Positions 17,285 through 45,971 of a stretch of DNA of 64,000 bases are shown here, one piece after another. Under the pieces are notes generated by a model. It was not told the DNA's origin, did no database searches, and was given only the letters and a program-made list of their open reading frames with translations. Each line of letters starts with the position of its first letter. Position 1 is the first letter of the stretch. The DNA is from Candidatus Eiseniibacteriota bacterium (GTDB lineage: Bacteria; Orphanbacterota; Orphanbacteria; Orphanbacterales; Orphanbacteraceae): the NCBI GenBank assembly GCA_029262235.1, contig JAJCZU010000004.1, positions 62,001 through 126,000 on the forward strand, given 5' to 3'. Made by a program: the position numbers and the translations under genes.

Positions 17285-17371
17285 CACTGCGATCGGTCGG
17301 GGCTTTACACACCGGCTGAAGAGAAAAGAAGCATTTACGCAGAGGGATCAGTTCTCTCGCAGGTTCGGATG

Positions 17372-17484
17372 CGTAAGTAATACGCGAGGAGATCATTTCT
17401 CTCGATCTGTTCGGCCTGGCCAAATGGCCAAGTGGAGGCCGAACAGAATCCGAGAAACGATCTCCTCGCTTTTGCTTACGTATT
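17372..17484. repeat. Nested inverted-repeat element, copy 1 (TGGCCA core)
   Basis: A palindromic core TGGCCAAATGGCCA (17417-17430) is enclosed by four further pairs of complementary arms: TCTGTTCGGCC/GGCCGAACAGA, TTTCTC/GAGAAA, GCGAGGAGATC/GATCTCCTCGC and CGTAAG/CTTACG. The layout is the same as copies at 27901 and 44539, but the outer arms have unrelated sequences. It lies 90 bases after rplQ in the 393-base gap 17285-17677, in which I see no gene. Confidence 0.8.
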
Positions 17485-17590
17485 GGGAAGCAAGGGAACG
17501 GAAAGTCTGCGTAGGTGATTCGTTTGTATCGGCCGGGGTGAAAGCTCCCGGCCGTTTCTGTGTCTACTTTCGAGCGCGACGAGAAGAGGT

Positions 17591-17653
17591 ACGCAGAGGG
17601 AAGGGGTTCTCTTAGGCTGAACGGAATCCGAGAACCCCTACCCTTGCGTTTTT
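17591..17653. terminator. Long hairpin followed by T-run between convergent genes
   Basis: ACGCAGAGGGAAGGGGTTCTC (17591-17611) pairs with GAGAACCCCTACCCTTGCGT (17630-17649), followed by TTTTT. It could end transcription from the ribosomal operon and, read from the other strand, from the convergent gene at 17678. A second hairpin GGCCGGGG/CCCGGCC lies near 17533-17557. Confidence 0.65.
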
Positions 17654-26368: not shown

Positions 26369-27892
26369 ATGCGCGTCGCGATCCTTGCGGCACTCGCCGC
26401 CGCACTCACTTTCTCGCTCGTCACACCCGCGTTCGCCACCGTTTACTGGACACCGGAAGACTGGCAGGCCGCCGAACGCGCACGAGCCGCGCGCGCTGCT
26501 GCGATCGCTGCGGGGGAGTTCGATGCACCGCGGGCGTTTCCCGGCGCGGACCAAAGCGCGGCGGGCGCAGGCACGGCTGGCGGCGCCACCGGCACCGCGG
26601 GCAAAACCGCGCAGGATTACTTTCAGGAATTTCACGACGCCGTCTGGTTCATCGCGGGCAAGCAGGTCACGGACTCCACGCTCGTTGCGTACGGCGGAAT
26701 TCGCGAAGCCGAGCATCTGCTGAGCATCATTCAAACCGATAACACGTCCGAATCGATCTGGATGTTCTCGCGCTACTACGAACTGACGGGCGACGCCTCG
26801 ATCCTGCCGTATCTCGACCGATCGTGGATCTATGTGAACAACCGCCCCGCCTATAATGAGGAAGGGGGGAGCGACGTTTTCGGCGGCTACTATCGCATGT
26901 ACAACTGCGGGTGGGCGCTCCGCGCAGCCCTCAAGTACGTCGAAGTCTTCGGCGACACACAATACGATACGTATGTCGACTCGTGCGCAAACTACATCGC
27001 GACCCACAACCTGCGACTGACCGGGCCGACGGGTCTCTTCAACGAAGTGAACCCGCCCGTTCTCGCCTGGGCCGCGCGCAATCTGCGTGACTACGGTAAC
27101 ACCTACGGCGATTCGCTCTGGCAGTTCCGTGCATGGAAGCGCGGCGAGCGCGTCAAGGGATGGGTCGAAGACGACATCCTCGTGATGGATCGCGAAGAGT
27201 GGGCCGTCTCACCCGGCATGACCGTCTGGGGACTGCTGGGCTCGTACTTCGACGAGTTCCCGGCCGAGGAGTCGCTCTGGGTCGCGACCTACGCCGCGCA
27301 GATGGACACGTTCGCCGAGCCCGACACCTGGGAGAACGCCCACCAGGCGTGGTACGCCCTCGGCATGAACGCGCTCGAAATTTCGACCGGCGACCCGGCG
27401 TGGGGAACCATGCACGCGAACATGACGAGCTACCTCGACGCCTTCGACGACACCGACCAGGACGGCGGCATCTACGGTCAGCCCGCCGACGCCGACACGA
27501 TGGACCACGCCTGGATCACGGCCTACATGGGGTTCATGTGCTACAACCCGTTCATTTCCGTTTCGACGAGTATTGCTGAGAACGACAGGCCAGGCGATGC
27601 GGGCGCAGTGCCCGGGCTCGCGCTGCTCGGAGACAATCGGCCGAATCCGTTCAACCCTCGCACGGTGATTCCGTTTCGCGTGGAGCGCGCGGGCGACGTG
27701 GTGCTCGAGATCATCGATCCCGCAGGTCGGCTCGTTGAGCGTGTCGTGAGCGGGCATCTGCCGGCCGGCGCGCACGAAGCCGAATGGCTCGGGCGCGACA
27801 GTCGCGGGCGTGCGGTTGCATCGAGCGTGTACTTCTATCGGTTGCGAGCAGGTACTTTTGAGGAAACAAGAAAGATGATATTGGTTAAGTAG
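26369..27892 (+). CDS. Secreted alpha/alpha-toroid-like protein with FlgD-type C-terminal domain
   Basis: 507 residues. A signal peptide spans 1-23 (ILAALAAALTFSLVTPAFA). After a low-complexity A/G/T-rich linker, residues about 75-390 show repeated helical-hairpin signatures (SESIWMFSRYYELTGDASILPYLDRSW, NCGWALRAALKYVEVFGD, NAHQAWYALGMNALEISTGD, DHAWITAYMGFM). These resemble the six-hairpin glycosidase or terpene-cyclase-like toroid, but I see no definite catalytic residues. The C-terminal 85 residues are the FlgD-like domain (NRPNPFNPRTVIPFRVERAGDVVLEI...SSVYFYRLRAG) ending ETRKMILVK. Probably exported and surface-bound, possibly acting on polysaccharide. Confidence 0.8.
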   Translation: MRVAILAALAAALTFSLVTPAFATVYWTPEDWQAAERARAARAAAIAAGEFDAPRAFPGADQSAAGAGTAGGATGTAGKTAQDYFQEFHDAVWFIAGKQVTDSTLVAYGGIREAEHLLSIIQTDNTSESIWMFSRYYELTGDASILPYLDRSWIYVNNRPAYNEEGGSDVFGGYYRMYNCGWALRAALKYVEVFGDTQYDTYVDSCANYIATHNLRLTGPTGLFNEVNPPVLAWAARNLRDYGNTYGDSLWQFRAWKRGERVKGWVEDDILVMDREEWAVSPGMTVWGLLGSYFDEFPAEESLWVATYAAQMDTFAEPDTWENAHQAWYALGMNALEISTGDPAWGTMHANMTSYLDAFDDTDQDGGIYGQPADADTMDHAWITAYMGFMCYNPFISVSTSIAENDRPGDAGAVPGLALLGDNRPNPFNPRTVIPFRVERAGDVVLEIIDPAGRLVERVVSGHLPAGAHEAEWLGRDSRGRAVASSVYFYRLRAGTFEETRKMILVK

Positions 27893-27900
27893 GAGTCGTG

Positions 27901-28007
27901 TTGAGGTACGGGCTGCTTGTACTTCCCGCAGCCCGCTCGTCCTGGCCAAATGGCCAGGTACGGAGGCCGAGCGGGCTTCCGGGAAGCACATCGCAGCCCT
28001 TACTCAA
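27901..28007. repeat. Nested inverted-repeat element, copy 2 (CTGGCCA core)
   Basis: Core CCTGGCCAAATGGCCAGG (27941-27958) is framed by AGCCCGCTCG/CGAGCGGGCT, then CTTCCCG/CGGGAAG, then GGGCTGC/GCAGCCC (27910-27916 and 27993-27999), and outermost TTGAG/CTCAA. The central GGCCAAATGGCC and the trailing ACGGAGGC are shared with copies 1 and 3 while the outer arms differ. It starts eight bases after the stop of the preceding secreted-protein gene. Confidence 0.82.
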
Positions 28008-28023
28008 ACGGCTCTTGTCGCGA

Positions 28024-28175
28024 ATGGAAGGATAAGAGTAGGAACAAGAGCAAGAAGAGAGGAAAAGGCGAAAGAAAAGAGAGAGAAGAGGAGACAGGAG
28101 AAAGAGGAAGAGAAGAGGGGAGGGGAATAAGAAGCCGGAAGGGGGAGAGAAGGAGCAAAGAGCCAGGCCGGGGCA
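28024..28175 (+). other. Polypurine tract upstream of the DoxX-like gene
   Basis: About 150 bases of almost pure A/G on the + strand. The 3' side of the same gene carries a matching pyrimidine tract (about 28690-28770), so the gene lies between broadly complementary arms. The tract is open in one frame, giving a K/E/R-rich upstream extension of the DoxX-like gene, which I do not take as coding. Confidence 0.6.
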
Positions 28176-44538: not shown

Positions 44539-44634
44539 CCACGAAGAAAGGCCGGTCCTCGTAGCCCGCTCGACCTCCGTAGTTGGCCAGTTTGGCCAGG
44601 GCGAGCGGGCCGAGACAACTCGGCCTTCTTCGTG
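44539..44634. repeat. Nested inverted-repeat element, copy 3 (reverse orientation)
   Basis: CCACGAAGAAAGGCCG (44539-) pairs with CGGCCTTCTTCGTGG (-44634); inside, GCCCGCTCG pairs with CGAGCGGGC. The core, read on the minus strand, is CCTGGCCAAACTGGCCA followed by ACTACGGAGG, the same core and tail as copies 1 and 2 with unrelated outer arms. It lies in the 429-base gap between the convergent genes ending at 44411 and 44841. Confidence 0.8.
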
Positions 44635-44698: not shown

Positions 44699-44814
44699 CC
44701 CCTCTCACATGAAAGTGAAAAAGGCCGGTCCCCGAAGCCCCGAGCCCCATTGGCCGTCAGCCAGGGCGAGGGGCGGAGGGGATCCGGCCTCTTTCTCTTC
44801 CATCGTGAGAGGGG
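44699..44814. repeat. Nested inverted-repeat element, copy 4 (divergent core)
   Basis: CCCCTCTCAC at the left edge pairs with GTGAGAGGGG at the right. Next come AGGCCGG/CCGGCCT and TCCCC/GGGGA, then GCCCCG.../CGAGGGGC around a weak core ATTGGCCGTCAGCCAGGG. The layout is that of copies 1-3 but the core is degraded. A pyrimidine tract (44647-44705) separates it from copy 3. Confidence 0.7.
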
Positions 44815-44840: not shown

Positions 44841-45971
44841 CTATCCCTCGATCATCTCAACGTTGGCGCGCGGCATCAGCGCTTCTTCGCCGTCTTCGAA
44901 CTTCGCCTTCAGGACGCGCACCATGGTTTCGGAGTCGACCTTCGTGAGTTCCGCGGGCAGTTCGGTCACGGTCGCGAGCTGGCCGAAGCGCGGTTCGCGA
45001 ATGACGCGGATGACGGATCCGACCATGAGGCCGCCGCTTGCGTGATGAATGCTCTCGGCGTCTTCCTTGCTCATCTTCTGGCCGAGCGGAATGATGATCT
45101 CGGGGCGCATGACGCCGGCGCGGATCTGGGTCGCGCCGTTGATGCAGACTTTCTTTCCTTCGAAGCTCTTGAGCATGGCGAAGGTCTTGCCTGCCATCTT
45201 CATGTCGCCGAATCCTTCGGTCTGAATCAGCGTGAGGCCGATTTTCTCGCCGCCCGTAATCGCGACGCCGAGGTCGTAGCCGAGAATGCGCCGGAGGTCC
45301 GAGTCTTTGAAGCCGCCGACGATGATGCCGCGGACGCCCGCGTCGATCGCCTTCTTGATGACGTCGTACGTGACGTACGCACCGGCCACTACGATTTTGT
45401 CGCGCAGGTCGGGCGTGATCTTGTCCGCCGTCAGTTCATCTGAGGCTTTGTCGGCGACCATCTTGAGCTCGCCCGATACTTCGCCGCCGATTCCGAAGAT
45501 GCCCTGCACGAAGCCGCCTGCGGTTTCGATCACGACGCCTTCATTCGGCAGTACCTTGCTGACCCAGCCGTCGATATACGCCGCGACTTCGACCGGAATC
45601 GACGCGCCGCGCATGATGACCTGGCCCGTGACAGCCGAGATCTCTTCGATCGTGCCGTCGGCGGGCGCCATGACCTTATTCTTGAAGACGCCGAAGAACG
45701 AACTGACCATCGCGATCTCATCGCCCTTCTTGACGTGGTCGCCCTTCTTGACGAGCATCGCCTCGCCGAGATCTTCGGGCGTGATGCCGAGAATGGACGC
45801 GGCTTTGACGATCTGCACGTTCCCGGGCAGGTTCGTCCGCGCGACGATGTCTTCGGCTTTCACTTCAGCGCCGATTTCGACAAGCACTTCACCGGTGAGC
45901 GGAAGGCGCCGTTCGCGCTCGATCAGGGTCTTCTCGGTGACGCGAAGGCCGGGTGTATATGCGTGAGCCAT
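44841..45971 (-). CDS. Biotinyl/lipoyl-like sandwich protein paired with GlmL-type gene
   Basis: 376 residues. No signal peptide or membrane segment. The N-terminal half has repeated barrel-sandwich-hybrid (biotinyl/lipoyl-like) strands: LTGEVLVEIGAEVKAEDIVARTNLPG, LVKKGDHVKKGDEIAMVSSFFG, APADGTIEEISAVTG. The classic MKM/DKA lysine is not seen, so it is probably not lipoylated or biotinylated. The centre (KIVVAGAYVTYDVIKKAIDAGVRGIIVGGFKDSDLRRILG) looks like a nucleotide-binding fold. It follows the GlmL-like gene by 12 bases, and this pairing, which I recall from other bacteria, suggests a joint role. Confidence 0.78.
   Translation of the reverse strand: MAHAYTPGLRVTEKTLIERERRLPLTGEVLVEIGAEVKAEDIVARTNLPGNVQIVKAASILGITPEDLGEAMLVKKGDHVKKGDEIAMVSSFFGVFKNKVMAPADGTIEEISAVTGQVIMRGASIPVEVAAYIDGWVSKVLPNEGVVIETAGGFVQGIFGIGGEVSGELKMVADKASDELTADKITPDLRDKIVVAGAYVTYDVIKKAIDAGVRGIIVGGFKDSDLRRILGYDLGVAITGGEKIGLTLIQTEGFGDMKMAGKTFAMLKSFEGKKVCINGATQIRAGVMRPEIIIPLGQKMSKEDAESIHHASGGLMVGSVIRVIREPRFGQLATVTELPAELTKVDSETMVRVLKAKFEDGEEALMPRANVEMIEG

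Follow-up and report, generated by a model that had tools for sequence, protein, structure and literature searches.

The 64,000-nt window analyzed here (the whole stretch, positions 62001-126000 of contig C4 of the source genome, G000) carries copies of an imperfect hairpin element. G001 is the one available congener, R1 is a covariance model of 23 copies, and R2 is a model of type II copies. The features of the window are as follows.

17362..17487, + strand: type I hairpin element after rplQ; core TGGCCAAATGGCCA at 17417-17430; R1 match 17383-17470
17530..17554, + strand: ordinary intrinsic terminator, CGGCCGGG..CCCGGCCG then TTTCTG, downstream of the rplQ element; conserved in G001
17593..17648, + strand: core-less relative with arms TTCTCT ... 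GGAATCCGAGAA, then TTTTTCG; weak model match (21.2 bits, E 0.0037)
27897..28010, + strand: type I hairpin element; core at 27943-27956; R1 match 27909-27999
44541..44634, - strand: type I hairpin element; core TGGCCAAACTGGCCA at 44584-44598; sense to the gene at 44841-45971 (-)
44715..44797, - strand: type II hairpin element with a CCTGGC..GGCCAATGGGG core; 43 nt past the stop codon of the gene at 44841-45971 (-)

The three type I copies have in common TGGCCAAA(C)TGGCCA and a GGAGG-type tail, and their outer arms are unrelated, yet paired. Each lies in a space between convergent genes, beyond the 3' ends. The copy at 27897-28010 adjoins the stop codon of the gene at 26369-27892, and its model match begins 16 nt past that stop. 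The first-pass annotation had claimed this combination of a shared core and tail with unrelated but paired arms, and the claim was confirmed. R1 gave 84.0 bits (17383-17470), 82.2 bits (27909-27999), and 61.8 bits (44541-44634), the first two being among the copies from which R1 was built. Single-strand fold z-scores were -9.3, -6.8, and -6.6 (200 dinucleotide shuffles, none as good), and outer arms gave a mean pairing score of 11.0 with their own partner versus 1.7 with arms of other copies, a control whose high tail consists of related copies. The type II copy at 44715-44797 scored 29.8 bits with R1 and was the best G000 match of R2 (96.2 bits), a model whose training included this copy.

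As the ordinary terminator at 17530-17554 is downstream of the rplQ element, that element lies inside the rplQ 3' UTR. The core-less relative at 17593-17648 folds better than its shuffles (z -4.3) and is probably a deletion remnant. A search of G001 with the 25.5-45.4 kb part of the window found no orthologous contig. In an Rfam scan of the window plus 72 kb of type III loci the elements had no match above gathering score and an Rfam family was rejected for them. That scan returned only tRNAs and, elsewhere, a molybdenum cofactor riboswitch (RF01055, L178:8265-8386, 66.6 bits).

Anatomy, distribution, and siting of the family

Each copy is an imperfect hairpin of 115-170 nt. Its arms mostly span 44-52 columns, and its tip is conserved and belongs to type I, II, or III. 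The type I module is a self-complementary piece of ~60 nt, TTCCC..TGGCCAAATGGCCA AGTACGGAGG..GGGAA, with the detailed tip TTCYC-TCGA-CCGCTCG-GCC-TGGCCAAATGGCCA-AGTACGGA-GGC..CGCGG-ATCC-GRGAA. The type II center carries GTACG between TGGC and GCCA (TGGC-GTACG-GCCA-AT-GGG). The type III module, of ~95 nt, is CCCTGTCGGACC..GGTCCTCCAATGGGGCTC, and its tip is larger than those of the other types, at 85-95 nt (in detail CGCCCTGTCGGACC ... GAAAC ... GCCGTGCCCCCGGTCCTCCAATGGGGCTC). Four G.U pairs of this tip, read in the sense strand, are nearly invariant (columns 25-116, 30-111, 40-99, and 41-98) and would be compatible with a putative RNA role of the tip. The junction between the tip and the variable outer arms is TTCYC/GRGAA-like in all types. 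At the hairpin bases no base is more than 54% conserved, and the outer ends vary among copies and have no common terminal repeat. Type III copies often have a tandem duplication in the 5' arm, in the form of a short direct repeat (L182, L187, L097, L179, L204, L208, and L185), with no counterpart noticed in the 3' arm.

A further hairpin family, 'type IV' (GGCGGGTCCTGTCGCGCC..CACCCCTGCC..), occurs in similar spaces of both genomes (L099:3045, L101, L116, and L188 in G000; L197, L216, L220, and L222 in G001). Its 5' half stands directly before a type II element at C4:1017695 and at C8:333536, at the former site without the other half.

The family occupies ~110 places in G000, including the three copies of the window, and at least 18 (a few dozen at most) in G001, the assembly of which is incomplete. 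R1 found ~78 distinct G000 places at E<=0.1 and R2 added ~38 places beyond those of R1, the third type among them; E-values of both models are rough owing to a shortened calibration and the scoring of 150 candidates per genome. The 14-nt type I core occurs 29 times in G000 versus none for the reversed control. Whereas type I copies are common in G000, G001 has hardly any (three to four R1 matches). Copies also occur in tandem arrays (C8:128924/129086/129249 and C4:4923/5089), and one block with elements is present at two loci (C7:123.7-124.5 and C8:381.2-382.0). Several contigs of G000 end within or beside element arrays (C3:631716-631961, C6:70-312, C10:120472-121007, and C7:187463) and the copy number is therefore a lower bound; contigs C3 and C6 may join at an element array. 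Not all copies are independent: some are tandem, and subfamilies have longer symmetric arm pieces in common.

Searches with R1 and R2 did not find the repeats in five other genomes of the taxonomic family, and the type III model (R3), run with stricter filters across 290 genomes (283 of them prokaryotes from outside the taxonomic family), matched in G000 and G001 only. Strict sequence patterns gave no matches in GTDB contigs and viral contigs. The comparison set for the phylum consisted of seven genomes, all of one family. For the RpoA protein encoded in the window, the top identity was 98%, with 'Gemmatimonadetes bacterium SS_bin_27' (JABDJQ), the contig of which matches G001; the next identities were 74% (DeMMO4_6) and ~55% (Zixiibacteriota).

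By gene positions from a simple codon-usage gene caller, 63 of 93 elements have a same-sense gene on their 5' side (versus 30 with an opposite one). Within 130 nt of the element there were 41 same-sense stop codons versus 10 starts of opposite genes, and the usual element start is 15-130 nt past the stop codon of a same-sense gene. The siting beyond 3' ends put forward by the first-pass annotation thus holds genome-wide as well as for the three window copies. Strict siting between convergent genes is not a genome-wide rule, the better rule being a position just past a same-sense stop codon. Two elements in one convergent space usually point toward each other, and each of them follows a different gene of the pair. 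A GC stem directly followed by a U-tract is found in several copies (e.g., L091 and window 44715-44797) but not in others. T is more frequent in the 3' arm than in the purine-rich sequence downstream. Polypurine tracts (G+A ~70-75%) start directly past the 3' arm in most elements, for example at window 28030-28150. An intrinsic-terminator scan of the 14-32 kb region did not call the elements, and its output was not above that of shuffles.

Covariation, symmetric blocks, and orthologous sites

In the alignment of 23 type I copies, 14 pairs were changed on both sides versus 8.0 +/- 1.0 in shuffles, and two-sided changes numbered 66 versus 21.0. The covariation score was 0.339 versus 0.128 for shuffled alignments, none of 500 shuffles reached the observed value, and slid structures scored 0.07-0.12. 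The test proposed in the first-pass annotation, a covariance model, a genome-wide search for more copies, and covariation above background (here in 23 copies), therefore came out in its favor. The changes were almost wholly two-sided, as only 2 cells showed one-sided changes between standard pairs versus the 66 two-sided. Past the first two positions, the outer arms held 39 G.T and 37 A.C mismatches. RNA tolerates G.U but not A.C, and thus the equality indicates that one-strand RNA selection was not the main shaper of the arms.

Copies from separate loci resemble each other over a core-centered piece that ends at equal depth on the two arms (34/34, 16/17, 13/14, 36/35, 32/30, and 25/25). Over 790 copy pairs, mean identity was 86% within a block of 59 nt and 30% in the next 15 nt outside; note that local-alignment (BLAST) ends exaggerate the sharpness of the boundary and lower the outside identity, although the symmetry is unaffected. 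Outside the block, 81% of positions were Watson-Crick paired within each copy, and the offset correlation of the 790 pairs was 0.87. In some pairs the 60-nt centers are 100% identical and the outer arms unrelated, a pattern that does not come from gradual compensatory change. In ten pairs with 96-100% identical centers (few independent loci) the outer arms hold 19% mismatches and hence look older than the shared center, rather than freshly copied or in slow divergence from one ancestral arm. Other dispersed copies, C8:129249 and C8:269177, are alike over the whole hairpin down to the base.

Contigs of G001 that carry elements align to G000 element loci at ~80-93% nucleotide identity, indicating that many places, mostly of type III, predate the split. 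Ortholog pairs showed ~10 double changes that preserve Watson-Crick pairing versus ~1.4 expected, together with ~36 single changes (all of these figures are estimates). Given these pair-preserving changes, structural maintenance of the stems may make some contribution. The L175/L202 orthologs differ in length by 5 nt at equal depth on both arms.

Two lineage-specific insertions of small hairpins into family hairpins were seen in these comparisons. In the G000 copy at C8:8096 (L176), ~23 nt containing GGCCGGATTCCCTCCGGCC interrupt a type II tip that is continuous in the G001 ortholog (L195), and elsewhere in G001 (L210) GGCCGGATTCCCTCCGGCC forms a plain terminator-like hairpin. The G001 rplQ copy carries within its arm a 26-nt palindromic insertion, GTGCAGCCTCCGGCTGCAC, that is absent in G000.

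At the G000 type I and II sites checked, the G001 counterpart was mostly without the element, and in some counterparts a plain hairpin occupies the position instead (L210, L211, and L226). At L091/L210 this plain G001 hairpin is AAAGGGCCGG-ATTCCCT-CCGGCCCTTTTTTT. As L210 retains a module part, TTCCCTCC, it is better read as what a deletion left behind than as a site that never held the module, which argues for loss as well as gain of elements. At L101/L225 G001 has the outer arms without the inner hairpin, and either gain or loss is possible. Among the orthologous sites examined, we did not find a clean never-filled insertion site with a target duplication.

Origin of the hairpins and their place among known elements

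The reading that we prefer is that a palindromic module sits as a block at the apex of an unrelated 3'-end hairpin, many of the hosts being terminator-like (a GC stem, then a U-rich stretch). The unrelated paired outer arms would then be the arms of the host hairpin and not an evolving stem of the module itself. Blocks would arrive by insertion at hairpin tips, either as folded single-stranded DNA or during replication, and would be removed by deletion between short repeats, with the outer arms being kept by a terminator or mRNA 3'-end role of the host. Taken jointly with the view that the elements are a genus-specific family of palindromic repeat modules, we regard this reading as evenly poised between right and wrong. 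That the modules form a class of mobile DNA targeting hairpin tips, in which folded single-stranded modules enter the apices of terminators or of earlier copies and nest layer by layer without a dedicated transposase of known kind, is a tentative proposal that we doubt somewhat more than we believe.

Several observations count against the apex-insertion reading. Neither conserved ends nor a target-site duplication came to light, nor did a transposase in a search with the Y1 profile PF01797, and the type II element at C4:1017695 follows the lone half of a type IV hairpin. Gene conversion of cores among old copies could also give identical centers with unrelated arms, and the pair-preserving changes between orthologs point to some maintenance of stems. 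Moreover, the near-identical pairs come from few independent loci and the boundary sharpness is overstated by BLAST ends.

In replication template switching (quasipalindrome correction or snap-back copying; mechanism as in PMC8794818), the polymerase folds back at the hairpin and, with one arm as its template, rewrites or extends the opposite arm as the reverse complement, and mutation suffices without selection. The near absence of one-sided changes, the strand symmetry of the mismatches, the coordinated 5-nt length difference at L175/L202, and the frequent tandem duplication of the type III 5' arm are all in keeping with it. However, newly copied arms are expected to be almost perfect, whereas those around 96-100% identical centers have 19% mismatches, and template switching alone does not spread one core to ~110 places. 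We consider it unlikely as the explanation, although it may add to arm maintenance.

Selection on structure was the explanation given in the first-pass annotation. The excess of ortholog double changes (~10 versus ~1.4) may leave it a part, but the symmetric blocks, the 2 versus 66 ratio, and the 39:37 mismatch count argue against it as the best account. Its RNA version, a structured 3'-UTR RNA acting as terminator or mRNA stabilizer with a compensatory stem and a constrained protein-binding tip, gains from the strong covariation, the sense-strand siting 15-130 nt past stop codons, the nearly invariant G.U pairs of the type III tip, and the same double changes. Yet one-sided pair changes are nearly absent, outer-arm G.T equals A.C, arms change en bloc at symmetric boundaries about identical centers, and at rplQ an ordinary terminator follows the copy. 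This version seems to us distinctly unlikely.

Old immobile hairpins with cores homogenized by gene conversion and arms left to diverge fit the identical 60-nt cores at distant loci and the many places common to the two species at ~80-93% identity, but are a poor prospect as the full account given the near absence of type I from G001, the lack of the element at most of the type I/II sites checked in G001, and the dispersed copies alike down to the base; core conversion still has to be taken seriously as an alternative source of part of the pattern.

Among known systems, MITEs have constant terminal inverted repeats, whereas the outer ends differ among copies here. Integron attC sites are also imperfect hairpins past genes in which structure is kept while arm sequence varies, but they have conserved outer ends (R'/R''), a variable tip, and a cassette array. 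The family has the reverse plan, a constant tip with variable ends, and its copies are scattered. Loss of SbcCD as a reason for the survival of long palindromes was uninformative, as the seven genomes of the taxonomic family are alike in having only a sub-threshold SbcD match (7/7).

REP/BIME/REPIN elements with RAYT (Y1) transposases are likewise dispersed high-copy palindromes, often past coding regions and in tandem or opposed pairs (PMC3733652, PMC3116915). A REP stem spans 5-13 bp and carries GTAG or CGTC on one of its ends (PMC3733652). In contrast, the family has arms mostly of 44-52 columns that differ among most copies and unconserved ends without a GTAG/CGTC-type motif. A Y1 transposase profile (PF01797) had no match in G000 (95.5% complete) or G001 (82%), which rules out a REP/RAYT system. 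Four relatives without the element have a PF01797 match. The GC clusters and hairpin elements of yeast and sponge mitochondria also spread without a known enzyme, with palindromes that merge and shuffle and a conserved stem structure (PMC4478555, PMC2800124). These elements are short and organellar with conserved stems and varying loops, whereas the family is in a bacterial chromosome, 115-170 nt long, with a constant tip, variable stems, and sense siting past genes. Of the known systems, these mitochondrial elements (PMC4478555, PMC2800124) and the REP elements (PMC3733652) come closest in behavior, and the defining features tested for REP, MITE, and attC were not found.

Like intrinsic terminators and 3'-end stem-loops (PMC1590033), the elements lie just past stops and between convergent genes and many have an A-rich/U-rich stem extension, but they are far longer, have a conserved repeated tip, and at rplQ stand upstream of a separate ordinary terminator. 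Hairpins made by template switching (PMC8794818) share the multi-base pairing-preserving changes with few intermediates; these are products of a mutation process and not a repeat family, which leaves ~110 copies of one tip unexplained. In the open-licence literature we did not find a bacterial case in which hairpin arms are described as replaced in a symmetric, nested fashion.

Stems that are unrelated in sequence and still pair usually count as proof that RNA structure is under selection. In this family such a statistical signal comes with symmetric block boundaries and without G.U intermediates, suggesting that nested insertion or template switching can mimic compensatory evolution. The family offers a natural test case for the origin of long hairpins. 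If it is true that the modules target hairpin tips, their choice of target would be unusual and would make the ends of genes more variable.
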